Below the pieces are notes generated by a model that was not told the DNA's origin, did not search any database, and saw nothing but the letters and a program-made list of their open reading frames with translations. From an uncultured Pelagibacteraceae bacterium (GTDB lineage: Bacteria; Pseudomonadota; Alphaproteobacteria; Pelagibacterales; Pelagibacteraceae), in assembly GCA_902633335.1 (NCBI GenBank), contig CACPFY010000001.1, positions 62,001 through 126,000 on the forward strand: a stretch of DNA of 64,000 bases, given 5' to 3'. Every line of letters begins with the position of its first letter. The first letter of the stretch is position 1. Shown here one piece after another: positions 5,719 to 62,746 of this stretch. The position numbers and the translations under genes were made by a program.

Positions 5719-5739
5719 TTATTGTATATTAAATAAATT

Positions 5740-8910: not shown

Positions 8911-8913
8911 ATT

Positions 8914-9720: not shown

Positions 9721-9725
9721 TATTA

Positions 9726-9799: not shown

Positions 9800-9820
9800 A
9801 CAAGTAGTAATTTAAAACAT

Positions 9821-10804: not shown

Positions 10805-10824
10805 AATTATATATCATCTTAATT

Positions 10825-11721: not shown

Positions 11722-11722
11722 T

Positions 11723-13827
<2,105 letters not shown>

Positions 13828-16220: not shown

Positions 16221-16224
16221 TAGT

Positions 16225-41711: not shown

Positions 41712-41829
41712 AGCCTGGCAACGTCCTACTCTCCCGTGCCTTAAGACAAAGTACCATCGGCGCTGAAGGACTTGACTTCCGAGTTCGGAATGGAATCGGG
41801 TATAACCCCTTCGCAATAATTACCAGGCA
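41712..41829 (-). rRNA. rrf: 5S ribosomal RNA, separated from 16S/23S
   Basis: Recognised by the terminal helix (5' TGCCTGG... with CCAGGC near the 3' end), the loop sequence ATTCCATTCCGAACTCGGAAG and the CGCCGATGGTAC and GGGAGAGTAGG segments, all standard 5S features. No 23S or 16S sequence exists in the 22 kb on its upstream side; instead polysaccharide genes occupy it. A near-consensus promoter lies directly upstream (41834-41862). Ends are accurate to a few bases. Confidence 0.96.
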
Positions 41830-43330: not shown

Positions 43331-43405
43331 TGGTGGGTGTGATAAGAATTGAACTTATGACCTCTACGATGTCAACGTAGCGTTCTACCACTGAACTACA
43401 CACCC
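43331..43405 (-). tRNA. tRNA-Val (anticodon GAC)
   Basis: 75 bases with encoded CCA. Acceptor GGGTGTG pairs with CACACCC; D arm GTTC/GAAC; anticodon stem CTACG/CGTAG around TTGACAT gives anticodon GAC; T arm TAAG-TTCAATT-CTTA is slightly weak but complete. It lies inside the polysaccharide locus, 21 bases after the stop of the epimerase gene and upstream of the Wzy/WaaL-like gene, same strand as both. Confidence 0.93.
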
Positions 43406-43426: not shown

Positions 43427-44287
43427 TCATTTTATCTTAATCTGCCTCTTATAAAAATTAATTGTTTTGATAATTCCTTTTTTTAAATTAGTTTTTGGTT
43501 TCCATTTAAATACTTTTTTAGTCTTTTTTAAATTGGGGTATAAAACTTTTATTTCATCTTTTCTCATTTTTATTTTTCCATACATGGGCGTACCTTTACC
43601 AATTTTATTTCTTATCAAAGCTACAATATTCTTAACTAGAATAGGTTTTCCAGAACCTACGTTATATATTCCAGGTTTAAGTCTTTTTGCTTTTAAAATT
43701 CGTGATATTAACTCGATAAAATCCTCAATAAATAAAAAATCTCTTTTTTGACTACCTTCAGTGCATGAAAATTTTTTATTCTTTAAACAAGAGTCAATAG
43801 TAAGTGGAATTAATCTATCTTTTTTCTGAAAAGGTCCATAAACTTGATAAGGTCTAATAATGATATATTTTTTTAAATTTTTTATTATGTACTTTGTTGA
43901 TAAATACTTTGCTTTACCGTAATGCGAATTTGGAATACATTTGTCATTCTCCCCTTGTGGACTTGCTCTTCTTCCATATTCTAAACTACTTCCACTTTGA
44001 ATCAAATATCCTGAGTTAGTTTTTTTAATATAATTCACAATATTTTTAACTAAATTATAATGTGCTTTATATGTCTCAAATTTATTGGCATGATTAATAT
44101 TTCCAGCAAAATTAATTACAAAATCAAATTTTTTAGATTTTAACTTTTTTTCTAACAATGATGCATTAAAATTATTTTTATTTTTTTTAATGCATGTTAT
44201 TTTAAAAATATTCTTTTTTAAAATATCATTTTTTAAATTCCTTCCTAGGAAACCTGTGGCACCAAAAATAAGAATTTTTTTTTTCAA
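43427..44287 (-). CDS. NAD-dependent epimerase/dehydratase family protein (CDP-sugar reductase/epimerase candidate)
   Basis: 286 residues, extended SDR fold. N-terminal FGATGFLGRNL nucleotide loop, SGSSLEYG for the catalytic serine region, and SHYGKAKYLSTKYI for the Tyr-x3-Lys pair; RPYQVYGPFQ follows. Directly downstream of rfbF and rfbG (4-base overlap with rfbF), so the natural guess is a 4-ketoreductase or epimerase acting on CDP-4-keto-6-deoxyglucose products, like RfbJ. That function is inferred from position. Confidence 0.8.
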   Translation of the reverse strand: MKKKILIFGATGFLGRNLKNDILKKNIFKITCIKKNKNNFNASLLEKKLKSKKFDFVINFAGNINHANKFETYKAHYNLVKNIVNYIKKTNSGYLIQSGSSLEYGRRASPQGENDKCIPNSHYGKAKYLSTKYIIKNLKKYIIIRPYQVYGPFQKKDRLIPLTIDSCLKNKKFSCTEGSQKRDFLFIEDFIELISRILKAKRLKPGIYNVGSGKPILVKNIVALIRNKIGKGTPMYGKIKMRKDEIKVLYPNLKKTKKVFKWKPKTNLKKGIIKTINFYKRQIKIK

Positions 44288-44970
44288 ATTAGTTTTTTTA
44301 GGATATTTTTTTCTAAAAGTTGTTTATCTCTCAAAGTATCCATGCACTGCCAAAATTTATTATGTTTATACGCACCAAGTTTCTTGATTTTGCAGATATT
44401 TTCTAAAGGGGACCTTTCCAGAACAGTGCTGTCATTTTTTATATAATTAAATATTTTAGGCTCCATCACGAAAAAGCCTCCATTAATCCAACCTTCATCC
44501 AACCTTGATTTTTCTTTAAAATATTTTACTTTTTTGCCGCTTAATCTTATACCCCCAAATCTTGCTGGTGGCCTTACTGCTGTTAGAGTAACAAAATTTT
44601 TATTTTTTATATGAAATTTTAAGAGACCTTTTAAATTAATGTTAGATAAAGCATCGCCATATGTAAGCATAAATTTATGATTTCCAATTATTTTAGCTAA
44701 TCTTAACACCCTCCCACCTGTCATAGAATTAATGCCAGTGTTAACTACTTTAATATTTAATCCTAATAAATTTTTTTTAAAGTAATTTTCAATAATTTTA
44801 CTTTTATAACCAGCGGCAATAATAAAATCTTTAAATCCGAATTTTTTGTAGTGTTTTATAATTCTTACAATTATCGGCACATTCAAGATTTTTACCATAG
44901 GTTTAGGAATTTTCTTGGTATACTCTGATAATCTTGAACCTTTCCCGCCAGCTAAAATTACTACTTTCAT
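44284..44970 (-). CDS. rfbF: Glucose-1-phosphate cytidylyltransferase-like nucleotidyltransferase
   Basis: Makes CDP-glucose from CTP and glucose 1-phosphate. 228 residues, about 30 shorter than RfbF of Salmonella, with a shortened middle. LAGGKGSRLSEYTKKIPKPMV at the N-terminus, TYGDALSNI, FKEKSRLDEGWINGGFF, LERSPLENI and the C-terminal WQCMDTLRDKQLLE are all RfbF hallmarks. It is 3 bases downstream of rfbG, confirming a CDP-hexose module. Confidence 0.88.
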   Translation of the reverse strand: MKVVILAGGKGSRLSEYTKKIPKPMVKILNVPIIVRIIKHYKKFGFKDFIIAAGYKSKIIENYFKKNLLGLNIKVVNTGINSMTGGRVLRLAKIIGNHKFMLTYGDALSNINLKGLLKFHIKNKNFVTLTAVRPPARFGGIRLSGKKVKYFKEKSRLDEGWINGGFFVMEPKIFNYIKNDSTVLERSPLENICKIKKLGAYKHNKFWQCMDTLRDKQLLEKNILKKLI

Positions 44971-44973
44971 AAA

Positions 44974-46047
44974 TTATAGTTTTCTCTCAAAATTTTTAAT
45001 ATGTTTTGAAGAAAGATTAAACACAGTGCTTTCTTTAGAATAATATTTTTTATACCAATCAATTGTTAGTTTTATAGTATTTTTAAATGATAAAATAGAT
45101 TTCCATCCTAAAATTGATTTTGATTTGGTGCAATTAAGTTGTAAAAGAGTATTTTCACTATAACTCTTCTTGTCTTTTTTAACTTTCCATTTAATTTTTG
45201 GCCATAATTCTTTAGAAATATTTAAAACTTCGTTAACATTAATATTTTTTTTAATAGATGGTCCAAAGTTAAAAGCTTGACCGTGAAGTTTTTTATTTTT
45301 CTTTAGTTTATATGCTGCTAATAAATAACCATTTAAAACATCTAATACATGTTGCCATGGTCTAGTTGCTTTTAGATTTCTAATAATCACAGGTTTTTTT
45401 TGATTATTAGATCTTACAATGTCAGGTAACAATCTATCTTCCATCCAATCTCCGCCTCCAATTACATTTCCTGCTCGAGCAGTAATTATAAAAACTTTAT
45501 TTTTTTTGGTTGAAAAAAAAGATTTTACATATGAGCTAATACATATGTCTGCAGAAGATTTTGAAGCTCCATATGGGTCTGTTCCGCTTAAAATATCATT
45601 TTCTATGTAACCTTTTTTTGTTTCTATGTTCTTATATGCTTTATCACTGGTTATCATAACTGCTATTGTTTCTTTCTTTTGAAGCTTTAGACACTCAAGA
45701 ACGTTTAAAGTTCCAATTACATTTGTTTGCCATGTTTTCGATGTATCAAAATATGATCTTTTTACAATAGATTGAGCGGCTAAATGAAAAACGTAGTCCG
45801 GTTTAAACTTTTTAAATGTGCTTCTAAGTTTATTCAAATTTCTGATGTCAATTATTTTTGAGATAATTTTTTTGTTTAATCTTAATAATTTAAAATGGCT
45901 CGGTGTAGTTGGTATTTTGTCAGATAAACCCAATATTTTAGCACCATTTAAATGAAGCCACAGAGTTAACCAAGATCCTTTAAATCCAGTATGACCCGTA
46001 ATTAACACTCTTTTATTTTTAAATATTTTTAAAAATGATTTTTGCAT
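44974..46047 (-). CDS. rfbG: CDP-glucose 4,6-dehydratase
   Basis: NAD-dependent SDR converting CDP-glucose to CDP-4-keto-6-deoxyglucose, the branch point for 3,6-dideoxy and related sugars. 357 residues: ITGHTGFKGSWLTLWL (GHTGFKG at 18-24), FHLAAQSIVKRSY, MITSDKAYKN, DPYGASKSSADI (catalytic Tyr and Lys), RAGNVIGGGDW and TRPWQHVLD. Very close to RfbG in motif spelling. First of the CDP module, 32 bases downstream of the dioxygenase gene. Confidence 0.94.
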   Translation of the reverse strand: MQKSFLKIFKNKRVLITGHTGFKGSWLTLWLHLNGAKILGLSDKIPTTPSHFKLLRLNKKIISKIIDIRNLNKLRSTFKKFKPDYVFHLAAQSIVKRSYFDTSKTWQTNVIGTLNVLECLKLQKKETIAVMITSDKAYKNIETKKGYIENDILSGTDPYGASKSSADICISSYVKSFFSTKKNKVFIITARAGNVIGGGDWMEDRLLPDIVRSNNQKKPVIIRNLKATRPWQHVLDVLNGYLLAAYKLKKNKKLHGQAFNFGPSIKKNINVNEVLNISKELWPKIKWKVKKDKKSYSENTLLQLNCTKSKSILGWKSILSFKNTIKLTIDWYKKYYSKESTVFNLSSKHIKNFERKL

Positions 46048-46078: not shown

Positions 46079-46924
46079 TTATAATCTCCAAAATCGTAAT
46101 TCTATACTCACTCTTGTAATGTTTTTGTTATCATTTAATCCGCCGCCATGTATTATATTTGAGGAAAATAACAATAACTGATTATTTTTTGGATCAGGTC
46201 TTATTAATTTTATCTTTGGCTTTGTCTTAACAATTACAGGCACTGAAAATTTAATTCCATTGAAAAGTGTATTTAATTTTGTTCTTAAAACATCTGACTC
46301 TTTTATTTGGTGACTTTTTGGAAAAACAGGCAGAGAGGATTTTTTGTTAGATCCAGCTATTGGTATATAAATATTTACTCCATTTGCATGATTATCAAAA
46401 TAAGCATCGCGATGCGGAGGATTAAAATCATTTTTTAAAGGGCGAATTATCCTTAAATTAAATCTTTTTGGATCCAAATAATACTTGTGATTTTTGTTAG
46501 TAAATTTTTTATTTAAAGTAGACACATTAATTTTGAGAATTTTGGACATGAAATTTTCAAGTTTTATTCTTGATATCGCGCTTGAAAATTTAATACCTTG
46601 AGATATATCTTTAATTATTTTGTAATGCAATTCGAGATCAACAAATAAATGGTATTTCTCTAATCTAAAGTTGTTAATTTTTTTTTTTGAATGTTTTTTT
46701 ATAAGGCGTTTAATTAATTTTTCGATAAATTTTTTCATTTTTAAGTGAGAAATGGTTTTATCAAAATTTACAACACCGTAACCTTTTTTATCAAATTTTA
46801 CATTTTCTAGAAGGTTGTCCTGATCTTCAATTAATGTTTTTTTGGGACCTCTAAAAGTTTTTCCTTTGTAAAAGAATGAATAGTTTTTCTTCTCAATTTT
46901 ATAGGATGTTTTTAATGTCTTCAT
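46079..46924 (-). CDS. Phytanoyl-CoA dioxygenase-like 2OG-Fe(II) oxygenase
   Basis: 281 residues. Complete ligand set: H171-x-D173 in NPPHRDAYFDNHANG, H259 in SSNIIHGGGLN, and R271 in ITRVSIELRF for 2-oxoglutarate. Between them lie IYIPIAGSNKKSSLPVFPKSH, the PhyH-type strand and turn. Expected reaction is hydroxylation or another oxidation of a small or sugar-linked substrate. Its start overlaps the aldo-keto reductase stop by 26 bases, tying it to the sugar locus. Confidence 0.78.
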   Translation of the reverse strand: MKTLKTSYKIEKKNYSFFYKGKTFRGPKKTLIEDQDNLLENVKFDKKGYGVVNFDKTISHLKMKKFIEKLIKRLIKKHSKKKINNFRLEKYHLFVDLELHYKIIKDISQGIKFSSAISRIKLENFMSKILKINVSTLNKKFTNKNHKYYLDPKRFNLRIIRPLKNDFNPPHRDAYFDNHANGVNIYIPIAGSNKKSSLPVFPKSHQIKESDVLRTKLNTLFNGIKFSVPVIVKTKPKIKLIRPDPKNNQLLLFSSNIIHGGGLNDNKNITRVSIELRFWRL

Positions 46925-47825
46925 ATTTTTTCATTTCATTAAGATGTTTGTTAAATAAATTATTATTAAATATTTTTTTAAATTCAAGTTTGTTTAAGTG
47001 TTCTGTTGAGCTTATACCACATAATGTAATATCGACATATTTTTTACTATGTGCTAAAGCGAACATAAACTCCTCAAAAGAATATCCGTATTTTTTACAT
47101 ATTTTGTCAATTTTTTTAATTTTTGATATATTTTTAGTTTTATAATTAATGTTTTTTTTAAACTTTAAAAGTCCAGTATTTGTCAAAAATTTGTTTGACA
47201 AAATACCTTTGGAGAGAATTCCATAGACCAAATTTACGAAGCCTTTATTTTTTGTAGTATTAAGATTTTCTAATCTATCTTTAAAAAAGATATTTAAAGG
47301 TTGTTGATTAAATATAAATTTTTTTTTCATATTACAAATTTTATGCACTTTAATGATAATGTTTAATGGCCAGTTTGTACTTCCCCAAAATCTTATATCG
47401 CCTCTTTTAATTAAATTTTCAAAAATATTTACAAGTTCATATAAATTGATATTTGGATCATATCTATGACATTGTAAACAGTCTATAAAATCAGTTTTAT
47501 AATTTTTTTTTATCTGCTCAAGAGAATAATAAATATTTTCTTTACTTAATCCATCTTCAATTTTTTTATTTACAGAGAAAAAAACTTTAGACGCTATAAA
47601 AAAATCTTTTCTTAAGTGATTTTTTTTTAAAATTTTCCCTATTATTTTTTCACAATTTCCGCCTGCATAATTAATTGAGCTATCGATAAAATTTACACCT
47701 TTTTGGTATAGCTTAACGAGAACTTTTTGACTTTCTCTATAATCTAATTTTTCTCCGAAATTTTTATATGTACCGACTCCAATTTTACTTAGAGATGTTT
47801 TTTTATCTAAACTTATATATTGCAA
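46899..47825 (-). CDS. Aldo/keto reductase
   Basis: 308-residue NADPH-dependent TIM-barrel reductase. Catalytic tetrad visible: Asp48 and Tyr53 in FIDSSINYAGG, Lys80 in FFIASK, His120 in CLQCHRYDP. Some deoxysugar pathways use an aldo/keto reductase for a ketone at C3 or C4, and the location between a methyltransferase gene and the dioxygenase points to the same kind of work. Exact substrate unknown. Confidence 0.88.
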   Translation of the reverse strand: MQYISLDKKTSLSKIGVGTYKNFGEKLDYRESQKVLVKLYQKGVNFIDSSINYAGGNCEKIIGKILKKNHLRKDFFIASKVFFSVNKKIEDGLSKENIYYSLEQIKKNYKTDFIDCLQCHRYDPNINLYELVNIFENLIKRGDIRFWGSTNWPLNIIIKVHKICNMKKKFIFNQQPLNIFFKDRLENLNTTKNKGFVNLVYGILSKGILSNKFLTNTGLLKFKKNINYKTKNISKIKKIDKICKKYGYSFEEFMFALAHSKKYVDITLCGISSTEHLNKLEFKKIFNNNLFNKHLNEMKKYEDIKNIL

Positions 47826-47844
47826 AATGAAAAACCAAATGTAA

Positions 47845-48639
47845 TTAAAAACTCAGTTTATAATATCTTGTATAATTTGTTGTGTATAATTTTTCTAAGT
47901 TAAATTTTAATATTGGTTGGTTCTCATTAACCCATTTATAAAAGCCATCTGGAATTTCATTTTGATGTACACCCCAATCATCAAATAAAATAAACATGCT
48001 TTTTTTTGAGTTTAAGTAATCTTTAACTAAGTCTAAAGCATCGTAGGCTGAGTCTCTTAAATCACAGTCAATATGCACTATAGAAATATGACTGGAAAGT
48101 TTTTTTAATTGTTCGTGAATTTTCCTATCCGCAAATACACCTTTGAGAAGAGAAACTTTTCTACATTTAAATTTTTTCAGGTTGCTCTCTACTTTAAGTG
48201 TAGAGGTGCTTCCAAATTCACCTTTTACCCACTTTGGTACACTTTTTTGTCCAAGCGAGACATTAACAGAATCATGGGGTAAGCCTTCAAATGTATCTAT
48301 GCCGATCATTTTTTTTTTTTTATCTAAAAATTTATCAAAAAACACCAAGCTCCATCCCTCAAATACTCCTAGCTCTAAGAAGTCACCAGTAATTTCATTT
48401 CTGTGCTTATCGACCAAATTTCTCATATTAACTATTCTTCCAATTTGATGTTCGGCAACTATATTATTACAATACTTGGAGTAAGTTTTTTCATCAAAAC
48501 TAAATAGATTTTGTATTAAATAATTAAGATCATAAAATTTACTATTCAAATATTTATTTTTTATAAAATTAATATTATTTGAAGTAAATTCAGTAAAAAA
48601 TCTTAGTAATTTATATGGATTTAATATTTTTAATAGCAT
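47845..48639 (-). CDS. TylF/MycF-type sugar methyltransferase
   Basis: 264 residues. The SAM fold shows FLELGVFEGWSLVFFDKFL, MIGIDTFEGLPHDSV, and the metal-binding IVHIDCDLRDSAYDALD, the macrocin-O-methyltransferase (TylF) layout. Family members O-methylate sugar hydroxyls in antibiotics and surface glycans. A run of 13 T at 48309-48321 (A on the sense strand) encodes part of DKKKKM just before the SAM motif and could be a slippage site. Confidence 0.85.
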   Translation of the reverse strand: MLLKILNPYKLLRFFTEFTSNNINFIKNKYLNSKFYDLNYLIQNLFSFDEKTYSKYCNNIVAEHQIGRIVNMRNLVDKHRNEITGDFLELGVFEGWSLVFFDKFLDKKKKMIGIDTFEGLPHDSVNVSLGQKSVPKWVKGEFGSTSTLKVESNLKKFKCRKVSLLKGVFADRKIHEQLKKLSSHISIVHIDCDLRDSAYDALDLVKDYLNSKKSMFILFDDWGVHQNEIPDGFYKWVNENQPILKFNLEKLYTTNYTRYYKLSF

Positions 48640-48689: not shown

Positions 48690-49961
48690 TTATTTTTTCA
48701 TTTTTTCTAAATCTTCTTGAGCCAATTTAACTATTTTTTTTGCTTCACTCATTGGGTCGTATCTTAACTTAATAGTTTGATTTAAGTCTTTTTCAATGTC
48801 TAATTTGTTAGAATATAAAGATTTATAAATAGACTCAGCAAAATATTTTTTATTAAAACAGGGCACCACGTAGCCATTAACGCCGTCAATTAAAGACTCC
48901 TCAGCTTCTCCCTTATTAAATGCAACTACTGGCAGATTGTTAACAATTGCTTCTCTTATAGTTGCTGGTCCATTGCATCCAGTTGAAGGTGAAAGGAATA
49001 CGTCTGCCGCACGATAAAGTAAATTTAATTTATTATCATCAAATATTTCACCTAGGTGTATCCACTCAATTCCTGAAATATTAAAATAGAAGTTATGTTT
49101 TCTTCCAAACGTTATCAACTTGACGGGGCTCTGATTTTCTTTTTTAGTTTTTAAGTCTAATATTTTTTTAAATTCTCTAAGAATTTCATTCAAAATTCGT
49201 CCCCCCTTATGAGGTGCATCAAGATTAAAAGTTCCAAAAAGTAAAATTTTATCATTTATATTTAAGTTAAGCATTTTTCTTGCAATATTTTTTTCATAAA
49301 ATTTTTTTCTTTCATCTCTAACTGTTAAATAAACATAATTATTAAATGTATTTTGTGTCACTGGAGAACTATCGTATAATTTTTTAGTAAAATTATTTTC
49401 AAGTAGTATTTTTGGTTGAAATTTATCAAATATATTTTTTTTCTTTTTAAAAATTTTATTTGAAATATTAAAAATATTGAAAAAATTTAATTGTGGGCAT
49501 TTATTACATCCAGATTTAAACTTTTCACACTCCTCTCCATTCTCATATAAAAAATTTACATGACAACCTCCTACTGCAAGTTCCATATCTAAAGGTCTTA
49601 AATAAATATTTTTATTTGTTTCAAATATAGTTTTAAGCATATTGAATGACAAAAATTTATGAAGAGTATAAATTATAATTGTGTCAGCCTCTTCTACATA
49701 TTTTTTTATTGAATTATAATTTATTGTACTATTTCCGAAACTAAATAGAACTCTTTTTTTTTTGAAAAATTCTAAAAAAAAGAAAAAAATTCGTTTAAAT
49801 AACGACCTTTTAATTTTAATTATATTATCATTTTTTTTTGTAGATTTATGAAGTAAAATGGTTTTGCTTTCATGCCCTAATTTTATAATATTTGAGTTTA
49901 GATTAACAACGGTTTGGCCTACACCATCAATGTCATTATATGTAATGAGCAGAAATTTCAC
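48690..49961 (-). CDS. Glycosyltransferase family 4 protein
   Basis: 423-residue GT-B enzyme. N-terminal LITYNDIDGVGQTVVNLN acceptor half; a cysteine-rich patch GGCHVNFLYENGEECEKF...GCNKCPQL in the first half is unusual and could bind metal; C-terminal donor half has LFGTFNLDAPHKGGRIL, DVFLSPSTGCNGPATIREAI and VVAFNKGEAEESL, the E-x7-E region. Donor sugar unknown; probably adds one residue of the repeat unit. Confidence 0.87.
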   Translation of the reverse strand: MKFLLITYNDIDGVGQTVVNLNSNIIKLGHESKTILLHKSTKKNDNIIKIKRSLFKRIFFFFLEFFKKKRVLFSFGNSTINYNSIKKYVEEADTIIIYTLHKFLSFNMLKTIFETNKNIYLRPLDMELAVGGCHVNFLYENGEECEKFKSGCNKCPQLNFFNIFNISNKIFKKKKNIFDKFQPKILLENNFTKKLYDSSPVTQNTFNNYVYLTVRDERKKFYEKNIARKMLNLNINDKILLFGTFNLDAPHKGGRILNEILREFKKILDLKTKKENQSPVKLITFGRKHNFYFNISGIEWIHLGEIFDDNKLNLLYRAADVFLSPSTGCNGPATIREAIVNNLPVVAFNKGEAEESLIDGVNGYVVPCFNKKYFAESIYKSLYSNKLDIEKDLNQTIKLRYDPMSEAKKIVKLAQEDLEKMKK

Positions 49962-49984: not shown

Positions 49985-51133
49985 TTATTTATGGAAATAG
50001 TCTTTAACTTTTTGAGAAATATAATCGACTTCACTTAATTTGAGCTTGTTGTGCATGGGAAGTCTTACAATTTTTTTGATTATTTCATCTGTATTTTTTA
50101 AATTATCACTTTTATTTAAAAAATTTTTTCCAACTTTTGATAGGTGTAGAGCTTCGAAACTTATAAATGCTGTAATACTATTTTTTTTCAAATATTTTAA
50201 AAACTTTTCTCGTTCTTTTTTTTTTAAAATTATTGTAAAGGCATGATAATTATATTTGTATTTATGCTTTAATTTATTACATATAGTAAATTCATCATTT
50301 AACCAAATTTTAAAATTTTTAATGTATCTTTTGTATAAATTTGATCTGTATTTAATAACTTTATTTATATCTCTAATTTGTGGTTGCAAAAAACTTGCAT
50401 TAAGTTCTGGTAACCTAAAACATGATCCAAGTTCAACCCAAGAATAATATTTTTTATGGTAATTTGGATCAGAAACAACATAAGTTCTGTCAGTTCCTTT
50501 ATCAAAAACTAAATCAGACTTTCTTTTAAATTTTTTGTTGTTTACTACAAGTAATCCACCAATTCCGCTTTGATAGTTTTTTGTTTCATGAAAAGAAAAA
50601 GTTGCAAAATCCCCAAATGTACCAACGGGTTTATTTTTGACATAAGAGCCTAAAGCAGGGGCAGCATCTTCTATTAAAATTATTTTTTTTCTTTTACAAA
50701 AATTTTTTAAATCTCCTAGATAATCGACTGGAAGTCCTTGCATATGAATTACCACGATAACTTTGGTTTTTTTATTTACATTTTTTTTAAAATCTTCAAA
50801 AGTTGGCATCAAATTACTTTTATCGATATCACAATACCTTACTCTACATCCTGTTCTTACAAAACTAGATGCAGTGGTATTATAATTGTACGATGGCATC
50901 AGTACTTCTTCATCTTTTTTTAAATTCATCATTAAGGCACAAATTTCCATAGCTGCTGTACAACTATTTGTTAAGTGAACATGTTCAAAGCCAAATTGTT
51001 TTTTAAGATCTTTTTTAATTTGTATAATATTTTTACCAGGACCGTGCAAAGAGGCTTTTGAATTTAATAATTTTTTTACATTATCAAAATATTTCTTATC
51101 TTGTAACGGTGTGTTAAATAAAATTTGTTGCAT
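49985..51133 (-). CDS. DegT/DnrJ/EryC1 aminotransferase, WecE-like (C4 transamination candidate)
   Basis: 382-residue PLP enzyme. TNSCTAAMEICALMM, MPSYNYNTTASSFV, LIEDAAPALGS (Asp156) and FSFHETKNYQSGIGG with the PLP lysine Lys185. The SFHETKN spelling is that of WecE/RffA, which aminates dTDP-4-keto-6-deoxyglucose at C4. Three bases after the E1-like gene, so it may act on that enzyme's 4-keto product. A substrate with CDP rather than dTDP is inferred from rfbF/rfbG. Confidence 0.88.
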   Translation of the reverse strand: MQQILFNTPLQDKKYFDNVKKLLNSKASLHGPGKNIIQIKKDLKKQFGFEHVHLTNSCTAAMEICALMMNLKKDEEVLMPSYNYNTTASSFVRTGCRVRYCDIDKSNLMPTFEDFKKNVNKKTKVIVVIHMQGLPVDYLGDLKNFCKRKKIILIEDAAPALGSYVKNKPVGTFGDFATFSFHETKNYQSGIGGLLVVNNKKFKRKSDLVFDKGTDRTYVVSDPNYHKKYYSWVELGSCFRLPELNASFLQPQIRDINKVIKYRSNLYKRYIKNFKIWLNDEFTICNKLKHKYKYNYHAFTIILKKKEREKFLKYLKKNSITAFISFEALHLSKVGKNFLNKSDNLKNTDEIIKKIVRLPMHNKLKLSEVDYISQKVKDYFHK

Positions 51134-51136
51134 AAT

Positions 51137-52333
51137 TTAAATAAACTTTTCTATGAATTTTTTCATAACTGATAACATGTAATTTATTTCCTGCTTTGTA
51201 AGGCCATGATGACATCCAATAAGAATTCCGTTAGCCATTACATCGTCACTAACCTTATTCGCTTGTTTGTGTTTCTTATAATACCTATTTTTCATCAAAG
51301 GTTGTCGCATAATATTACCGCTAAATATTGGTCGAGTTTGTATACCATTTTTTTCTAAATTTATTTGGAACTGGCCTCTTGAAAATGGTGTGTGTTTTTT
51401 TAAGAGGATAGGATATGCCAGCCAACCTGTTTTTGTTTTATTTTGTTGAATGGGAGTTCTAAAAAAATTTGGGTAATTACTAAAAAATCTATTAAGTAAA
51501 TTAAAAATTTTTATCCTTTTATTAATAATATGTTTTAATTTTTTTAATTGTTCTAAACCAAATGCAGCAGAAATTTCAGAAGGGATAAAATTATATCCCA
51601 TATCAGCGAATATGTATTTTACATCATATTGTATTCCATCAATTTTCTTTTTAAATCTAGGTTTGACACCAACGTTTTGATCAAATATAGCTGATGACCT
51701 TCCGTACTCTCTAAGCATTTTAGCGTTTTCATAAAGTTTTTTATCATTAAAACAAACAATTCCACCAAATCCTGCTCCGGTAATTAAGTGAGCGCCATAA
51801 AAACTTGTAGAAACAGCGTCTGAAAGTTTTCCTGTATTATTGTTATTATATTTGTAACCTAAAGTATCAGCAGAGTCTTCGATAACTTTAAGATTATATT
51901 TTTTTGCCAATTTAAATATAATATTCCAATTAGCAATGTTGCCTAATAAATTTGGTATCATTATAGCTACAGTTTTTTTGGTAATGCACTTTTCTATTTG
52001 GTCAACATTAGCAATAAACTGCCTATCTAAAACATCTATAAAGTACGGCACACAATTAGCTTGATAAATTGGAGCAACAGTAGTAGCAAACGTTAAAGAG
52101 GGAGTAATTATTTCAGAACCTTTTTTAAAATTAAATGCACTTATAGCAAGTAAATTTGCAGAAGATCCAGAATTAACCATTAACCCATATTTTTTTCCAA
52201 ATAACTTGCTGGCTTTTTTTTCAAATTCTTTTACTGACGGGCCATTCATTAAGGCTGTTGGATTTTTCAATACTTTAGATACTGCATTAATTTCTTTTTT
52301 ATCGTAAACGGCTTTTGCGTAATAGACTCTCAT
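51137..52333 (-). CDS. E1/RfbH-like DegT-fold sugar 3-dehydrase homologue without cluster cysteines
   Basis: 398-residue DegT fold. The PLP lysine is replaced by His182 in SFYGAHLITGAGFGG, as in PMP-dependent E1 (RfbH/SpnQ) and ColD. The C-terminal half reads like RfbH (QYDVKYIFADMGYN, TRPIFSGNIMRQP). However, where RfbH has its cysteine cluster for [2Fe-2S], this protein has GRSSAIFDQNVG (211-222) and no cysteine. It should therefore not be assumed to need the E3 reductase; a ColD-like mechanism is possible. Two bases after the oxidoreductase gene. Confidence 0.82.
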   Translation of the reverse strand: MRVYYAKAVYDKKEINAVSKVLKNPTALMNGPSVKEFEKKASKLFGKKYGLMVNSGSSANLLAISAFNFKKGSEIITPSLTFATTVAPIYQANCVPYFIDVLDRQFIANVDQIEKCITKKTVAIMIPNLLGNIANWNIIFKLAKKYNLKVIEDSADTLGYKYNNNNTGKLSDAVSTSFYGAHLITGAGFGGIVCFNDKKLYENAKMLREYGRSSAIFDQNVGVKPRFKKKIDGIQYDVKYIFADMGYNFIPSEISAAFGLEQLKKLKHIINKRIKIFNLLNRFFSNYPNFFRTPIQQNKTKTGWLAYPILLKKHTPFSRGQFQINLEKNGIQTRPIFSGNIMRQPLMKNRYYKKHKQANKVSDDVMANGILIGCHHGLTKQEINYMLSVMKKFIEKFI

Positions 52334-52335
52334 AA

Positions 52336-53259
52336 TTATTTATTTTTAAGTTTAGTGAATAAGTTTGTGTGATTTTTGATTAATTCAATATTTAATTTTT
52401 TAAATTTTTTTCTATTATAATTTTTAGATATATGATTTATCATTTCAACAAATTGATTAGTCTTTTTAAACACTTTTTCATTTAATTTTTTACTGAAAAT
52501 TTTTAATATAATTTGCTCATTAGTAGCTTTGCTAAAAAATTTGTCAATGTGAATAGTGGCCCTATCGAAAAATATTTCGATATTATTTGTGTAATTTTGT
52601 CCCTCCCCCCAAAAATAATGTCTTGTGCTATTAGAATATTTTATAAAAATGTTACCTCTTAAATCTACTTTGTTAGCTATCTTTTGAGAAAAGTACTTTG
52701 AAATCGGTTGTTTATTTTCAAATAAATAAGTTTCTAAAGAGGTAACATATGAAGCTGCATCATTATAAAAACCGTTTCCCTCTTTTAGTATATATCTATT
52801 ATTATCTTTATTAAGTGAGGGATACCTAAAATTAGATATTACGTACCTAACTTTCCCAAATTTGTTTGATTTAATTAATTTTTTTAAATAATTGAATACT
52901 GGATGATAACAGTACATAAAAGTTTCAAATATTAATTTATCGTTTTTTTTCGCTAAATTTATTATTCTATTTAAATTTTTTTTTCTTGTTATAAATGGTT
53001 TTTCACAAATAACATGAGACCCAGACATTAAAGATTTTAAAATATATTTTTCGTGTAGATTATTTGGGCAACAAATATAAACAAAATCAAATTTTTTTTT
53101 AAAAAATTCCACATCTTTATAATTTCTAATATTATTAAACTTTATTGATTTCCTTCTTAACATTCCAGAAATCTTAAAAAAATTAGATTTTCTAAAAATG
53201 GGATACATTCTTTTTTTAAAATGATTTCCTGAACCAATTATGCCAAGTGTTTTTCTCAT
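52336..53259 (-). CDS. Gfo/Idh/MocA family oxidoreductase (sugar ketoreductase candidate)
   Basis: 307 residues: LGIIGSGNHFKKRM nucleotide loop, VYICCPNNLHEKYI, HVICEKPFI (EKP at 86-88), and a C-terminal beta domain. Family members such as KijD10 and SpnN reduce the C3 ketone created by NDP-hexose 2,3-dehydratases; the gene lies 8 bases after exactly such a dehydratase homologue. Function is inferred from that pairing. Confidence 0.85.
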   Translation of the reverse strand: MRKTLGIIGSGNHFKKRMYPIFRKSNFFKISGMLRRKSIKFNNIRNYKDVEFFKKKFDFVYICCPNNLHEKYILKSLMSGSHVICEKPFITRKKNLNRIINLAKKNDKLIFETFMYCYHPVFNYLKKLIKSNKFGKVRYVISNFRYPSLNKDNNRYILKEGNGFYNDAASYVTSLETYLFENKQPISKYFSQKIANKVDLRGNIFIKYSNSTRHYFWGEGQNYTNNIEIFFDRATIHIDKFFSKATNEQIILKIFSKKLNEKVFKKTNQFVEMINHISKNYNRKKFKKLNIELIKNHTNLFTKLKNK

Positions 53260-53267
53260 AATTATTG

Positions 53268-54026
53268 CTAAATTAGTGAAAGAATTGATCTTAAATGTGG
53301 GCCTACATAATATCCCATTTTTATAAATTTATCTAATTCCCATAATGTTAACCATCTATATGATTTACCAGGTAAATTTATTTTCCCATTGTATTGAATA
53401 ATCCAATGAAGATTTCTTTTTTTAAAGAGTCTTCCCCCATCTTCGGTAACCCAAAATTTACGTATAGTCTTAAAATTTTTTTTAAAGTATTTTTTTGCCA
53501 CTTTAGGTTTAGATCCCAAATGAACACGATTCAAATTTGAGTAAGTAGCCTGCAAAGAAGGGCTTAGTTGTATTTCATTATAATTTCCTGGTTCAAACTT
53601 TGCTTCAATTAGATAGTGAGGAACTCCATTTATTATTGTTCTGACTAGACCAATTATGCCCCCTTTATAACCAATTTGTTTGATAAATGGTTGGTCCCAA
53701 CTTTTAACCTCTCTTTTGGAATTAATTGTTCTTTTTCCCTCAATAGAAAAAAATTCCCCACTGTCATGAGATATTACACCTTTTGATTTATCATATGTCC
53801 ATTTTCTCATTTTTTCTAAATGCACGTTAATAATTTTTGCCTTATTATTTTTTCTAATATTGTTATACCAAGCTAAAGTTTTGTTAAAATTCACATTTGT
53901 CCAATTTTCCATTTTTTCAATATTATTTTCGTAAAAAAATTTTTTTCTTTTTTCGTATAAATTATTTTTTTTTAAGAAATTTAGGTAGATTTTTACAATC
54001 AAAATAAAATTTAATTTTTTTTTCAT
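53268..54026 (-). CDS. NDP-hexose 2,3-dehydratase family protein, single-repeat form
   Basis: 252 residues. Family motifs: FFSIEGKRT, REVKSWDQPFIKQ, GIIGLVRTIINGVPHYL, AKFEPGNYNEIQLSPSLQAT, SNLNRVHLGSKP, and WVTEDGGRLFKKRN. The characterised enzymes (TylX3, EvaA, SpnO) are about 470 residues built from two similar Nudix-like halves; here only one half is present, with intact start and stop and a following gene in phase. It removes the C2 hydroxyl of 4-keto-6-deoxyhexoses in other systems. The N-terminal 60 residues are unique and helical. Confidence 0.82.
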   Translation of the reverse strand: MKKKLNFILIVKIYLNFLKKNNLYEKRKKFFYENNIEKMENWTNVNFNKTLAWYNNIRKNNKAKIINVHLEKMRKWTYDKSKGVISHDSGEFFSIEGKRTINSKREVKSWDQPFIKQIGYKGGIIGLVRTIINGVPHYLIEAKFEPGNYNEIQLSPSLQATYSNLNRVHLGSKPKVAKKYFKKNFKTIRKFWVTEDGGRLFKKRNLHWIIQYNGKINLPGKSYRWLTLWELDKFIKMGYYVGPHLRSILSLI

Positions 54027-56967: not shown

Positions 56968-58332
56968 CTAAATATAGTTTAGGTGTCTTGGATTTTTTTT
57001 AAGTATTTTGTGAATTTTTTTATCGTTATAATAATTTATATTTTTTTCGTTAATTTTCATTTTTTTATATTTTCTTATTAGTTTAAATATCGTTTTTTTT
57101 AAATTATCTTTTAAATTAAAATTAAGTTTTTTATTAATTTTTCTAAATGATACTTTATAATTTCTCTTATCTTGATCTATTTTGCTTTTTTCATAATCAA
57201 TTTTCATATATTTTTTAATAATCTTAACGATATCAATTATTCTGTAATTTTCTTTATCAGATCCAGCATTAAAAATTTGTTTACTCACTTTTTTTTTTTC
57301 AGTCTCTAATACTTTTATCAAAAGACGTGAAACGTCATTTGTTGAAATAAAAGGTCGCCATGAATTTTCACCATATAATTGGATCTTAATCTTTTTTAAT
57401 GCCATCAAAACAAATCTATTAACTACTAAATCAAATCTCTTTCTTGGTGAGTCACCGTAAACAGTTGAGAGCCTTAAAATTACTGGGCAAAAACCATCAG
57501 ATTTAAATGAGAGTATAGATTTCTCACATTCAATTTTACATTTTGCATAGAGTGAAACAGGATTTAATTTTGAATTTTCACTACATTTTAGCTTGGAGTC
57601 TCCGTATACACTGCAACTTGATGCAAATATAAATTTATTAATTTTATTTTTAATGCATTCTGAAATTACAAATACTGTATTTTCATAATTGTTTTTTATT
57701 GAGAAATTTTCATTTATGTTGACTGCAGGATCACCAACTATCTCTCCTAAATGAATAACATCAGTACAATTCTTTAAAGATTTTTTCAGCTTAACTTTAT
57801 TTTCACAATTTCCATAAAAAACTTTAAGATTTTTATTTTTCAATATTTTTTTGTCTAAATAACAGCCATAATAATTTGTATCTAATATATTTACTTGATA
57901 TTTTTTCTTAATCAAATCCTGAACTAAAACTGATCCGATATAGCCGAGACCACCAATCACTAAAATTTTTCTTCCTCTTTCTCTTTTATTTTCAATTAAA
58001 TCACTTGTGTGAATAAAATTTGTTAATTTATTTCTTTTTAATATTGGAATTAAAATTTTATTAGACTCTAAAAGTATTTTTTTTTTTAATTTTTCTTTTG
58101 TGTGAGGGATGCTATAATAATTCTTTTGATAGATATCTTTCGCCTTTTTTTTAAAAGATAACTCACCTCTTAATAAACTTTTTCTTATGTCCGAGTCAGT
58201 TATTACTCCTAAAAGGGATTTAGATTTTGAAATTACAAAGACACCGTTTTTTCCATTTTTATTTATTTTAAGTAAAATCTCTTTAATTCCTGTATTTTTC
58301 GTAACAATCATATCTTTTAACTTGGAAATCAT
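56968..58332 (-). CDS. CBS-domain pair fused to an extended SDR sugar epimerase/dehydratase
   Basis: 454 residues. The first ~115 form two CBS motifs (FVISKSKSLLGVITDSDIRKS around 32-52 and ILIPILKRNKLTNFIHTSDL around 93-112). From residue 122 an extended SDR starts: VIGGLGYIGS (Gly127-Gly133), SSCSVYG (238-244), and Tyr262-x3-Lys266 in LYAKCKIECE. In PtmE and related proteins of legionaminate pathways a CBS pair is joined to a nucleotidyltransferase; here it is joined to an epimerase. It overlaps neuB by 4 bases. Ligand of the CBS domains is unknown. Confidence 0.85.
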   Translation of the reverse strand: MISKLKDMIVTKNTGIKEILLKINKNGKNGVFVISKSKSLLGVITDSDIRKSLLRGELSFKKKAKDIYQKNYYSIPHTKEKLKKKILLESNKILIPILKRNKLTNFIHTSDLIENKRERGRKILVIGGLGYIGSVLVQDLIKKKYQVNILDTNYYGCYLDKKILKNKNLKVFYGNCENKVKLKKSLKNCTDVIHLGEIVGDPAVNINENFSIKNNYENTVFVISECIKNKINKFIFASSCSVYGDSKLKCSENSKLNPVSLYAKCKIECEKSILSFKSDGFCPVILRLSTVYGDSPRKRFDLVVNRFVLMALKKIKIQLYGENSWRPFISTNDVSRLLIKVLETEKKKVSKQIFNAGSDKENYRIIDIVKIIKKYMKIDYEKSKIDQDKRNYKVSFRKINKKLNFNLKDNLKKTIFKLIRKYKKMKINEKNINYYNDKKIHKILKKNPRHLNYI

Positions 58333-59309
58333 CTGAAAAATTTAGGTTTAATTGACTGATGTTTCTTTAAGTCTTTTAAGAGAATTTTATTTTTAATCAA
58401 ATGCATTTTGTCTACTGGGTAATTTCCCTCCGGTCTTAAAATATCTAAATCAGTCATAAAAATTTTTTGTCCCTTTTTTTTATTTTTATTTAGGTAAATA
58501 CCTTTTCTTGCAAAAAATTTTAGATTGCTCTCTTTTTTTGTAACTTTCCTATTTGATGAACCAATACTTTTTTCTGCAAATCTTATATTATTCACCATTT
58601 GTTTTAATTCTTTTGGTGATAATGAAAATTTGTGATCTCCAACTTTTTGTTTTTTGTTATAGGTGAAATGCTTTTCTATTATTTGGGCACCAGTAATTAC
58701 TGCTAATGCTGGCGTGAGAATATCGTTTGTATGATCTGAATAACCTACTTTTAGTTTATATTTTTTTTTTAGAGATATAATATTTCTTAAATTTGGGTTC
58801 ATTGTTGGATATTCTGATACACAATGTAATAAGCTTAAATTACATTTATTTAAAGATTTTACTGCTTTAGTTATTTCATCATAAGTGCTCATGCCGGTAG
58901 ATAAAATTACTTTATAATTTTTTTTATTAATTTTTTTAAGTAATGGGATATTGTTTATCTCTCCGGACGGAATTTTAATAATTTTTACTCCTAACATACT
59001 CAATGTTTTTAAGCTTTCAGAGTCAAATACTGAGAAAAAAACTTTTACATTTAGTTTATTTCCATAATTAATAATTTTTTTCCATTCTTTAATTGAAAAT
59101 TCTAAAGAGGAAAACCTCTTAAATATTTTTAAATAATTAATTTTTTTGTGAGAAAATTTTTTATTAATAAAATTTTCAGTCTTGAAAAGTTGAAATTTCA
59201 CAAAATCAACTTCCGCTTCACTAGCAATTTTTACCAGTTTCATGGCTTTTTTGAAGTCACCATTATGATTGATGCCTGCCTCTGCTATAATATTTATTTT
59301 ACTTTTCAA
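58329..59309 (-). CDS. neuB: N-acetylneuraminate synthase family protein (NeuB/LegI/PseI)
   Basis: Condenses phosphoenolpyruvate with a hexose amine to form a nonulosonic acid. 326 residues: TIM barrel with IIAEAGINHNGDFKKA, FVKFQLFKTENF, IIKIPSGEINNIPLL, ILSTGMST, LLHCVSEYPT and VGYSDHT, then a C-terminal SAF/antifreeze-like domain (FARKGIYLNKNKKKGQ). Whether the product is sialic, legionaminic, pseudaminic or another acid is not decidable. Overlaps the aminotransferase gene by 11 bases. Confidence 0.92.
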   Translation of the reverse strand: MKSKINIIAEAGINHNGDFKKAMKLVKIASEAEVDFVKFQLFKTENFINKKFSHKKINYLKIFKRFSSLEFSIKEWKKIINYGNKLNVKVFFSVFDSESLKTLSMLGVKIIKIPSGEINNIPLLKKINKKNYKVILSTGMSTYDEITKAVKSLNKCNLSLLHCVSEYPTMNPNLRNIISLKKKYKLKVGYSDHTNDILTPALAVITGAQIIEKHFTYNKKQKVGDHKFSLSPKELKQMVNNIRFAEKSIGSSNRKVTKKESNLKFFARKGIYLNKNKKKGQKIFMTDLDILRPEGNYPVDKMHLIKNKILLKDLKKHQSIKPKFFR

Positions 59310-60426
59310 ATAAATTACCCAATGTTTTAATTATAAAATCTAAATTAGTTTTTGTTAGTTTATAATGATTTGGTAAACCAAAAATTCTCCCTGATAATTC
59401 TTCAGCATTATTAAGGTTTAGTTTTTTGTAATTTTGCGATCCATTAAGCTTAAGATCTTGAAAAACTTTCTGTCTATATAGAGGATATTTATATCTCGAC
59501 CTAATTTCTATGCCCTTTTGTTTTAGTTTCTTTTTAACTAAAGATAAATTAATTTTTTGTGAAATGATCCTTATTGGACACCAAAAATAAGTGTGAAAAA
59601 TATTATTTTTTGGCTCTTGAATCTTAAACCATTTTTTTTCGTTATGTAATTTTTTTAATTTTTTTAATATATATAAAGAGTTTTTAATTCTTTTATTGTT
59701 GATCCTTTTAAGTTTTTTCAATTGAATTCTTCCGATAGCAGCGTTTATTTCTCCCATTCTAAAATTATAACCTAACAATTTATGTGTATCCCTATCAACC
59801 ATTCCATGATTTCTAAATGATTTGCAAAAATTTGAAATCTTTTTATCGTTTGTACATAATATACCGCCTTCTCCAGTGGTCATGTGTTTAGTTGCATAAA
59901 ATGAGAAACAAGAAACATCTCCAAATGTACCCACTAATTTACCATTAAATTTTGTTCCATGAGCTTGGGAGCAATCCTCAATTACTTTAATTTTATATCT
60001 CTTTGCAATTTTCATTATCTTAAACATATTGCACGATGATCCAGCAAAGTGCACCGGAATTACAGCTTTTGTTTTTTTTGAAATTTTTTCTTCAAAGCTT
60101 TTTGGATCCATGCAATAATTTTCAATATCAACATCGCAAAATATTGGTGTGCACCCATGATGCAAAATGGCAGTAGCGCTACTTATAAATGACATAGCTG
60201 GTACAATTACTTCGTCTCCAGGTTTTAAACCAAGCGAAGATAATGAAGCATGCAAAGCTGCTGTGCCGCTATTAAGGGCGACAGCGTATTTTGTCCCAAC
60301 AAATTTAGCATATTCTTTTTCAAAATTTTCAACGATTTTACCACTTACAAATTTACCGCTATAAACAACTTTTTTAATTGCTGCATATTCTTCTTTACCT
60401 GTAATTGGGATTGCAACTTTTATCAT
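59299..60426 (-). CDS. DegT/DnrJ/EryC1 sugar aminotransferase (nonulosonate module)
   Basis: 375-residue PLP enzyme with Lys180 in FSFYATKHMTTGEGG, IEDCSQAHG (Asp151), NSGTAALHASL and VPAMSFISSA. The GYNFRMGEINAAIG block completes the fold. In legionaminate and pseudaminate pathways such an enzyme (LegC, PseC) aminates a UDP-4-keto sugar before the NeuC/PseG and NeuB steps. Adjacent to the SQD1-like gene with no spacing, so the two may act consecutively. Confidence 0.9.
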   Translation of the reverse strand: MIKVAIPITGKEEYAAIKKVVYSGKFVSGKIVENFEKEYAKFVGTKYAVALNSGTAALHASLSSLGLKPGDEVIVPAMSFISSATAILHHGCTPIFCDVDIENYCMDPKSFEEKISKKTKAVIPVHFAGSSCNMFKIMKIAKRYKIKVIEDCSQAHGTKFNGKLVGTFGDVSCFSFYATKHMTTGEGGILCTNDKKISNFCKSFRNHGMVDRDTHKLLGYNFRMGEINAAIGRIQLKKLKRINNKRIKNSLYILKKLKKLHNEKKWFKIQEPKNNIFHTYFWCPIRIISQKINLSLVKKKLKQKGIEIRSRYKYPLYRQKVFQDLKLNGSQNYKKLNLNNAEELSGRIFGLPNHYKLTKTNLDFIIKTLGNLFEK

Positions 60427-61569
60427 CTAAATTAAAGATTTTTTAAATTTTTTTATTGTTTTTGTGTTGGAAATTAATGATTTTAAAATAATTTTTGACT
60501 CACTGAAAAAAGAAATTGGTTTAGATTTTAAAAGCTTAATAAATCTATTGTTTTCCATTTTCATATTATGAGACTCTTTTTCCCGCCTTGGATTTTCAAT
60601 CATTTTAATTTTAGACTTAAAACCAATATTATTTGCATTTTTGCTAATAGTTTTACCTATATACTTAATTCCTAACATTTCTGTAGTTTGGTTAAACACC
60701 TCAAAAGGTTTTTTTTGTTTATAACTTACTAAATTTACCATTGAGATCACAAAATCTTTTAGGCTTATAAAAGGTCTTTTAAGTATTCCTTTGCCATAAA
60801 CAGTTATATCGTGATTAATAACACTCATCGCACAAAAACGATTCAATACCACTCCAAAATTAAAATCAAAATCAAATCTTGTATTTAAATCAGGATGTAT
60901 TTTGGTTTCTCTAGTTTCTGTGCCATAAACAATTGATGTCCTCATGTCTATTATTTTTAAGCCCCAAATTCTATTTGCTAAATGCAAATTATTTAAATCA
61001 TTAGATTTTGTAATATGATACCAAGAACCACCTAAATTTGTGAAAGGTATTATATCGCTAATCTTTTTATTAGTTGCTTTAACAAAACCCTCAGGAATTT
61101 CAAAATTAGGTTGGCCATAGACACCAGTGGTTGAAGTATTAATAAATTTTAAATTTTTTTTTCCATACTTTTTTATTGCCCAAAGTATATTTAATAAAGA
61201 AATATTATTATTTAATAATGTAAAATTAGCTTTTGATACATCTGAGTTAGCATAAGGAGCAGAAGGCTGGGCAGCTAAATGAAAAACTATATCGAACTTA
61301 TGTTTTTTAAATAAATTTTCAGTAAATTTTGTATTAGTTAAATCACCTTTAAAAAAAAATAAATTTTTAAATCCAAGTTTTTTTGCACTTTTTATTCTTT
61401 GGCTCATTGATTTTATGGGAATAGCACTAGTCGCTTTACACTCTTTGACCCATTTTCTTCTCGAAAGGTTATCTACACCAATTATTTTAAAGTGTTTAAA
61501 TTTTTTAGAAATCCCTAATGCTAAAGGCCAACCAAGATATCCATCTATTCCGGTAAGTAAAATTTTCAT
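60427..61569 (-). CDS. SQD1-like NAD-dependent nucleotide-sugar enzyme
   Basis: 380 residues, extended SDR. GIDGYLGWPLALGISKK (7-23), VDNLSRRKWV, HLAAQPSAPYANSD, Tyr184-x3-Lys188 in GSWYHITKSN, VYGTETRET, NRFCAM, TVYGKG and C-terminal NPRREKESH align in order with UDP-sulfoquinovose synthase SQD1/SqdB. SQD1 makes UDP-sulfoquinovose from UDP-glucose and sulfite. No sulfolipid synthase is nearby, and the neighbours are NeuC, NeuB and an aminotransferase, so either sulfosugar production or a 4,6-dehydration-type step is possible. Confidence 0.83.
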   Translation of the reverse strand: MKILLTGIDGYLGWPLALGISKKFKHFKIIGVDNLSRRKWVKECKATSAIPIKSMSQRIKSAKKLGFKNLFFFKGDLTNTKFTENLFKKHKFDIVFHLAAQPSAPYANSDVSKANFTLLNNNISLLNILWAIKKYGKKNLKFINTSTTGVYGQPNFEIPEGFVKATNKKISDIIPFTNLGGSWYHITKSNDLNNLHLANRIWGLKIIDMRTSIVYGTETRETKIHPDLNTRFDFDFNFGVVLNRFCAMSVINHDITVYGKGILKRPFISLKDFVISMVNLVSYKQKKPFEVFNQTTEMLGIKYIGKTISKNANNIGFKSKIKMIENPRREKESHNMKMENNRFIKLLKSKPISFFSESKIILKSLISNTKTIKKFKKSLI

Positions 61570-62717: not shown

Positions 62718-62746
62718 TTTGATTATTAAAATTAGAAATAAGTATT

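Follow-up and report, generated by a model that had tools for sequence, protein, structure and literature searches.

Does a marine bacterium build into its envelope the kind of highly deoxygenated aminosugar associated with antibiotics? The question is raised by the window analyzed here, the whole 64-kb stretch (positions 62,001 to 126,000) of contig CACPFY010000001.1 from an uncultured Pelagibacteraceae bacterium of the SAR11 group. On its minus strand, genes for a nucleoside diphosphate (NDP)-hexose 2,3-dehydratase, a Gfo/Idh/MocA oxidoreductase (Gfo), an E1-like 3-dehydratase, and a WecE-like aminotransferase follow one another. We favor, at a probability of about 0.57, the reading that the cassette formed around them makes a 4-amino-2,3,4,6-tetradeoxyhexose linked to cytidine diphosphate (CDP) for a surface polysaccharide.

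Genes of the cassette and source of its sugar

The four open reading frames (ORFs) and their enzyme families, on which the original prediction was built, were confirmed by ORF positions, Pfam, and the ranking of NCBIfam models (Table 1). All four are intact and adjacent, separated by 8, 2, and 3 bp. The cassette extends past these genes to a glycosyltransferase gene and then on to rfbG, an rfbF-like gene, and a reductase gene. Set against the related loci L044 (genome G311) and L046 (G332), it holds two insertions, namely, the E1-like gene and a block of three genes (TylF-family methyltransferase, aldo/keto reductase, and a 281-aa ORF) between the glycosyltransferase gene and rfbG; otherwise both loci keep the order of the window, i.e., 2,3-dehydratase, Gfo, WecE-like enzyme, glycosyltransferase, rfbG, rfbF, and reductase. 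The rfbF-like, rfbG, and TylF-family genes are all present nearby, as had been claimed. Gene identities and order, the alignment of catalytic residues, the CDP source, the island location, and the genome-level co-occurrence presented below were established from the sequence.

RfbG scored 427.1 bits against TIGR02622 (cut-off, 278.45), and its closest PDB match was a CDP-glucose 4,6-dehydratase (2.3e-81). It also carries, as TSDK, the [ST]DK fingerprint given for RfbG in the available part of PMC8987622. The RfbG proteins of L043, L044, and L046 likewise lie above the TIGR02622 cut-off. For the RfbF-like protein, TIGR02623 was the best family at 245.7 bits against a cut-off of 300.25, with three relatives (269.6 to 293.9 bits) likewise under it. 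The window's assembly (G000) is 80.75% complete, and genome-wide absences refer to this recovered part. RmlB and RmlA are absent from it, the best model scores being 118.8 and 45 bits, respectively, compared with 345 to 448 bits for five RmlB-type and 322 to 433 bits for five RmlA-type proteins at other SAR11 loci, among which one RmlB and three RmlA fall under the curated cut-offs. The predicted CDP-linked starting sugar is upheld by the RfbG score, by the lack of RmlA and RmlB in the recovered genome, and by two relatives' cassettes with rfbG-rfbF, a pair found in the cassettes of the window and of four of the five relatives in all. Judging from the conserved gene order, the 2,3-dehydratase, Gfo, and WecE-like enzymes would very probably act on a CDP-sugar.

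In the favored pathway, RfbF and RfbG would supply CDP-4-keto-6-deoxyglucose, from which the 2,3-dehydratase would take off the C2 hydroxyl to give a 3,4-diketo-2,6-dideoxy sugar, and the Gfo enzyme would carry out the C3 reduction. The E1-like enzyme would then remove the C3 hydroxyl with pyridoxamine 5'-phosphate (PMP) and glutamate by a cluster-free route like that of ColD, and the WecE-like enzyme would aminate C4 to yield the product used by the adjoining glycosyltransferase. Close relatives would have their E1-like enzyme supplied from another locus. The substrates, order of action, stereochemistry, and final sugar of this scheme, as well as the oligomeric state proposed below, are what we infer from these data.

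The two dehydratases and their companion enzymes

The 2,3-dehydratase scored 168.7 bits against the PF03559 profile (cut-off, 25). It departs from the tandem type of EvaA and SpnO in that its chain holds one module and not two. According to the available part of PMC8987622, EvaA consists of two Nudix modules in tandem, with pocket A alone active, E139 and E190 implicated, and a dead second pocket; the reviewed 2,3-dehydratases are presented there as enzymes of antibiotic pathways acting on deoxythymidine diphosphate (dTDP)-sugars, the tandem EvaA being the only well-characterized one. The window protein has in common with EvaA (PDB 4j7g) the fold and both catalytic glutamates of pocket A, since Glu145 and Glu195 align with E139 and E190, but is one module and belongs to a separate group. 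Its predicted structure, of moderate confidence (predicted local distance difference test score, 66), was nearest to EvaA residues 11 to 246 (Z 14.7, 193 residues, 4.0 Å), and the first match other than EvaA came at Z 9.8.

Across 46 module rows, both glutamates occur in every single and every N module and in no C module, the singles including L031, which is a broken tandem. In a tree of 45 modules, which leaves out L031 and nine locus prefixes (near-duplicates) and whose root is not fixed, singles, N modules, and C modules form separate groups of 15 each (support 99/96, 96/90, and 94/82). These three groups rule out a recently truncated tandem gene, while an ancient loss is compatible with the unrooted tree. 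The single-module enzyme would probably be a homodimer with two live pockets. In L031 itself (G201, 8853 to 10113), a tandem 2,3-dehydratase gene is split by a frame change, and the second module is separate and contains one TAA.

In the order sample, 18 of 297 genomes contain PF03559, and in the family sample 24 of 397 do; in the phylum sample (398 genomes), the window's own genome is the only one. In the plasmid collection, 83 records match the 2,3-dehydratase, none of them reaching 60% identity and, by tally, every one coming from an actinomycete genus; the five examined encode proteins of 450 to 479 aa, each in one chain. Neither the 2,3-dehydratase nor the E1-like protein has a relative among the viral contigs, and none was found in phages. 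Among the literature matches listed, no title deals with 2,3-dehydratases that are from SAR11, CDP-linked, or single-domain, which is not proof of absence.

For the E1-like protein, RfbH (E1) was the top-ranked NCBIfam model, under its curated cut-off, and the best PDB match was E1 (3bcx, 1.9e-52). The catalytic His of E1 is matched in the alignment by His182, which occupies the position of the aminotransferase Lys, and this exchange distinguishes 3-dehydratases from aminotransferases in the accessible text of PMC8987622. An aminotransferase is excluded, as the window protein and each of the 30 other aligned rows of the SAR11 subclade have His in place of the Lys. The window protein and the SAR11 kin aligned with it lack all four cysteines that follow this His in E1, as well as the pair of the E1 motif EDCCD; the [2Fe-2S] ligands of E1 are, we assume, among these six. 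In a tree that leaves out eleven E1-like rows, the window protein belongs to a clade with proteins of SAR11, Roseibium, Leisingera, Palleronia, and Rhodococcus; the sister group of this clade consists of E1 and a Streptomyces RfbH, with ColD outside. E1, a CDP-4-keto-6-deoxyglucose 3-dehydrase, is the nearest characterized branch and shares the catalytic His, whereas its cluster cysteines are absent from the window protein and the aligned SAR11 proteins. ColD, a guanosine diphosphate (GDP)-4-keto-6-deoxymannose 3-dehydratase, lies farther off in the tree than E1 and belongs to the GDP-mannose series. Its row is presumably a PDB chain in which Lys has replaced the catalytic His; this Lys is visible in the alignment, and the letter of the row in the His column is the next residue. 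Like the window protein, ColD is a cluster-free, His-based PMP enzyme (PMC8987622, available part).

Among the PDB sequences matched by the Gfo protein, a sugar 3-ketoreductase ranks third by E-value (3rbv, 1.4e-15). The aminotransferase has PRK11706 (WecE-type) as its top-ranked NCBIfam model, under the curated cut-off, and misses the WecE cut-offs of TIGR02379 (248 against 434.85 bits) and NF008687 (305.5 against 375), hence our designation WecE-like and not WecE; its lysine for pyridoxal 5'-phosphate (PLP), Lys185, is present. Of the 297 order-sample genomes, 4 have a WecE-type match at E <= 1e-90; three of these genomes (78 to 100% identity) carry PF03559, and the fourth (52%) does not. 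Genome G094 was rejected as the holder of a further cassette: its WecE-like match (52%) lies on a contig of 3.6 kb that holds none of the other cassette genes. The adjoining glycosyltransferase likely transfers the sugar, and the PDB matches of the terminal reductase are generic. The genes of the second insertion are probably outside the core pathway. The TylF-family methyltransferase is near, as originally described; it is probably no member of the pathway, since its gene is missing from the relatives' cassettes and belongs to the insertion absent from L044 and L046.

The forosamine set of Saccharopolyspora spinosa (SpnO, SpnN, SpnQ, and SpnR) presumably uses the same four families for 2-deoxygenation, C3 reduction, 3-deoxygenation, and C4 amination. 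The parallel drawn with it by the original prediction survives for families and steps and is lost for membership of SpnQ/E1, given that the cluster cysteines are absent. The source sugar is dTDP-linked in spinosyn forosamine and CDP-linked in the window cassette, which moreover has a single-module 2,3-dehydratase, a 3-dehydratase without cluster cysteines, and a WecE-like aminotransferase, and is set in the envelope island of a Gram-negative oligotroph. The pathways to abequose, paratose, and tyvelose include, to our knowledge, neither a 2,3-dehydratase nor a 4-aminotransferase. These CDP-3,6-dideoxyhexose pathways share with the window the RfbF-RfbG-E1-type logic on CDP-glucose, and the roles of SpnO and SpnQ are described in the same source (PMC8987622, part available). 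In the available portion of a review on marine lipopolysaccharides, "tetradeoxy" is used of nonulosonic acids only (PMC3210612). The cassette is a variant of a known pathway type, with an unexpected host and an unexpected nucleotide.

Related cassettes and competing pathways

Five close relatives hold the 2,3-dehydratase and aminotransferase genes together, four of them with an orthologous Gfo gene. L043 (G191) and L050 (G450) carry the same genes as L044 and L046 in a different order, and L045 (G189) has the 2,3-dehydratase, WecE-like, and glycosyltransferase genes with a different Gfo gene and no rfbG orthologue in its stretch. Identity to the window is 75 to 80% for the 2,3-dehydratase, 78 to 85% for the WecE-like enzyme, and 58 to 60% for Gfo (four of the five). 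Gfo identity was discounted as evidence that the pathway had changed, as the window and its unlike relatives are 58 to 65% identical in every pairing, the different Gfo of G189 aside. As a separate observation, a cassette of G189 (L036, 9766 to 16037; 2,3-dehydratase, WecE-like enzyme, glycosyltransferase, and Gfo) stands between genes matching, by sequence starts and with gene names assigned by eye, the transaldolase-like (37940 to 38641) and transhydrogenase-like (38638 to 40038) ORFs that adjoin in the window.

The participation of the E1-like enzyme, and with it a tetradeoxy sugar, is favored because of the position of its gene in the cassette, its genome-level co-occurrence, and the parallels at L124 and L042. 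The cassette copy is the genome's sole E1-like gene at E <= 1e-60. Each of the five relatives (G189, G191, G311, G332, and G450) has an E1-like gene elsewhere in its genome. Such a gene occurs in 5 of 22 other PF03559 genomes (G152, G177, G203, G387, and G405; Fisher p 0.003, with kinship ignored and G191 and G450 being near-copies) and, among 294 other order-sample genomes, in 41 (Fisher p 0.02 against this sample with its two relatives included, kinship again ignored). The co-occurrence expected of the four genes therefore holds at the level of the genome and not of one cluster, the E1-like gene lying outside the relatives' cassettes. A reading in which the relatives make only a trideoxy sugar was dropped on finding the E1-like gene elsewhere in all five, and the estimate for the tetradeoxy sugar in the window rose from 0.5 to its present value.

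L124 (G405, 4914 to 14171) has genes for RmlB, RmlA, an RmlD-like protein, an RmlC-type protein, a tandem 2,3-dehydratase, Gfo, a short-chain dehydrogenase/reductase (SDR), a DUF4422 protein, and an E1-like protein, with a second DUF4422 ORF between them on the other strand. Among the stretches fetched, it is the one other place where this E1-like subclade joins a 2,3-dehydratase and Gfo, and it is a plausible dTDP-2,3,6-trideoxyhexose cassette. L042 (G076, 7142 to 12355) carries within 5.2 kb, on both strands, genes for a His-type 3-dehydratase-like protein, a single-module 2,3-dehydratase, Gfo, and a Lys-bearing DegT protein; the 3-dehydratase-like protein groups with ColD, a placement to be read with a long-branch warning.

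Several observations weigh against a tetradeoxy product. The E1-like gene is missing from all five closest relatives' cassettes; the same four subfamilies share one cluster in none of 27 other PF03559 genomes, and just one of these has PF03559 with a member of this E1-like subclade nearby, several of the fetched stretches being short or ending near a contig edge. The background counts of E1-like genes may also be low, as the order-sample search scored at most six candidates per genome. Moreover, no 2,3-dehydratase gene or rfbG orthologue was found at any of 20 fetched E1-like loci (out of 43 other genomes with a match), while an RmlB-like gene was present at 10 of the 20 (24 to 31% match; that of L091 was confirmed by profile). 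The E1-like loci of G311, G332, and G450 likewise hold neither a 2,3-dehydratase gene nor an rfbG orthologue; RmlB-like genes are present in two of the three stretches (G332 and G450). The closest relatives from the plasmid collection (Roseibium, Leisingera, and Palleronia, 45 to 47%) are encoded after rfbF-rfbG, and no 2,3-dehydratase is annotated within 8 kb of them, which suggests that their substrate is CDP-4-keto-6-deoxyglucose. The E1-like branch of the window is the longest of its 14-row subclade (0.55), yet L084 of the wider SAR11 clade has a longer one (0.65). With six distant rows left out of the reference set, the window protein has three changes at otherwise invariant positions, as do L084 and Palleronia, so that sequence change lends no support; such changes were dropped as an indication that the substrate is new after the full control gave equal counts elsewhere. 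No excess of window-specific changes was seen in the WecE-like enzyme or the 2,3-dehydratase.

In G191 and G450, mtnA and a methylthioadenosine phosphorylase gene are close to the E1-like gene, and an RmlB-like gene follows at a greater distance; in G332 the E1-like gene is about 6 to 9 kb from RmlB/A/C-like genes, and the stretches of G189 and G311 show no such match. The mtnA and phosphorylase genes adjoin the E1-like gene in L092 (G191, 9334 to 12480) and L158 (G450, 9460 to 12600), and in L124 they are found on the opposite side of the deoxysugar set.

The main rival, which we hold to be considerably less probable than the tetradeoxy route, is a branched scheme. The 2,3-dehydratase, Gfo, and WecE-like enzymes would make CDP-4-amino-2,4,6-trideoxyhexose. 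In a separate branch, CDP-4-keto-6-deoxyglucose would be converted by the E1-like enzyme into a 3,6-dideoxyhexose, with the terminal SDR or the aldo/keto reductase performing the reduction. The E1-less cassettes of the five relatives are in its favor, as are the E1-like loci without a 2,3-dehydratase (0 of 20 and 0 of 3), often near RmlB-like genes or, in three plasmid records, after rfbF-rfbG, and the 82 to 85% identity of the WecE-like enzyme to that of four relatives. However, the E1-like gene is placed within the aminosugar unit and not next to the terminal reductase gene, this reductase has homologues in four E1-less cassettes, the genome-level co-occurrence is 5 of 5, and L124 groups the 2,3-dehydratase, Gfo, and E1-like genes.

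It is improbable that the E1-like gene arrived by chance in a hypervariable island and contributes nothing, the product being a trideoxy aminosugar. The two insertions relative to L044 and L046 would fit such an arrival, as would the rapid rearrangement ascribed to this region (PMC2217521, available part), but the ORF is intact with its catalytic His retained and junctions of 2 to 3 bp, the recovered genome has no second copy at the threshold above, and all five relatives keep one. Least probable of all is a set fed with dTDP-sugars by RmlA and RmlB from elsewhere in the genome: the reviewed 2,3-dehydratases are dTDP enzymes (PMC8987622, available part), other SAR11 2,3-dehydratases lie with RmlA/RmlB, and the assembly is incomplete, but no RmlA or RmlB near the SAR11 score range occurs in the recovered genome, and rfbG-rfbF accompanies the set here and in four of five relatives.

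Island setting and other deoxysugar sets

In SAR11 strain HTCC1062, hypervariable region 2 (HVR2) is flanked by the 5S and 23S rRNA genes (PMC2217521, available part). The 5S rRNA gene of the window thus places the cassette at the corresponding edge of HVR2, with the 23S end outside the window, and the envelope context that had been predicted is borne out by this position at the edge of a surface island.

Table 1. Cassette genes and adjacent rRNA marker in the window
Feature	Position	Strand	Remark
Single-module NDP-hexose 2,3-dehydratase (PF03559), 252 aa	53268..54026	-	Pfam 1.4e-49
Gfo/Idh/MocA oxidoreductase, probable C3-ketoreductase	52336..53259	-	Pfam GFO_IDH_MocA 2e-16
E1-like PMP-type 3-dehydratase, His182	51137..52333	-	Pfam DegT/DnrJ/EryC1 2.3e-80
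WecE-like PLP C4-aminotransferase, Lys185	49985..51133	-	Pfam DegT/DnrJ/EryC1 5.3e-67
Glycosyltransferase (group 1)	48690..49961	-	Directly after WecE also in five relatives
TylF-family methyltransferase	47845..48639	-	Within second insertion (46079..48639)
Aldo/keto reductase	46899..47825	-	Within second insertion (46079..48639)
281-aa ORF, without Pfam match	46079..46924	-	Within second insertion (46079..48639)
RfbG, CDP-glucose 4,6-dehydratase	44974..46047	-	TIGR02622; TSDK at 133
RfbF-like glucose-1-phosphate cytidylyltransferase	44284..44970	-	Best family TIGR02623
SDR reductase/epimerase, end of cassette	43427..44287	-	Homologue in 4/5 relatives' cassettes
5S rRNA, edge of HVR2	41713..41827	-	HVR2 definition from PMC2217521 (available part)

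If the favored pathway is true, a CDP-linked single-module 2,3-dehydratase in an abundant ocean bacterium brings antibiotic-type chemistry into envelope biology, offers a natural test of the proposed origin of EvaA by duplication, and provides a defined surface-sugar difference usable in phage and grazer experiments. The position of the E1-like gene, inside the cassette in the window and elsewhere in the five relatives, makes substrate specificity directly testable. More tentatively, the SAR11 surface might carry a CDP-derived 4-amino-2,3,4,6-tetradeoxyhexose made through a single-module 2,3-dehydratase of pre-duplication form and an Fe-S-free offshoot of E1, and CDP or dTDP sets across SAR11 might give an antibiotic-type deoxysugar menu in the envelope island.

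A tRNA-Val gene (43331 to 43405) lies between an O-antigen ligase-like ORF (41895 to 43277) and the end of the cassette. On the other side, genes for NeuB, a DegT protein, an epimerase, a NeuC-like protein (Epimerase_2), and a carbamoyltransferase (58329 to 63973) probably form a nonulosonic-acid set.

Further deoxysugar sets were observed at other SAR11 loci. L027 (G066, 8225 to 14113), with genes for a 2,3-dehydratase, Gfo, a C-methyltransferase (PF08484), and RmlA/RmlB-like proteins, resembles what we take to be a mycarose-type set. L029 (G254, 7852 to 17068), which presumably resembles a vancosamine-type set, encodes a tandem 2,3-dehydratase, a DegT protein, a C-methyltransferase, RmlC-type, RmlD-like, and RmlA-like proteins, and RmlB. 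L026 (G031, 8320 to 13184), from another family of the order, has Gfo, single-module 2,3-dehydratase, WecE-like, RmlA, and RmlB genes and is possibly a dTDP version of the core of the window cassette.

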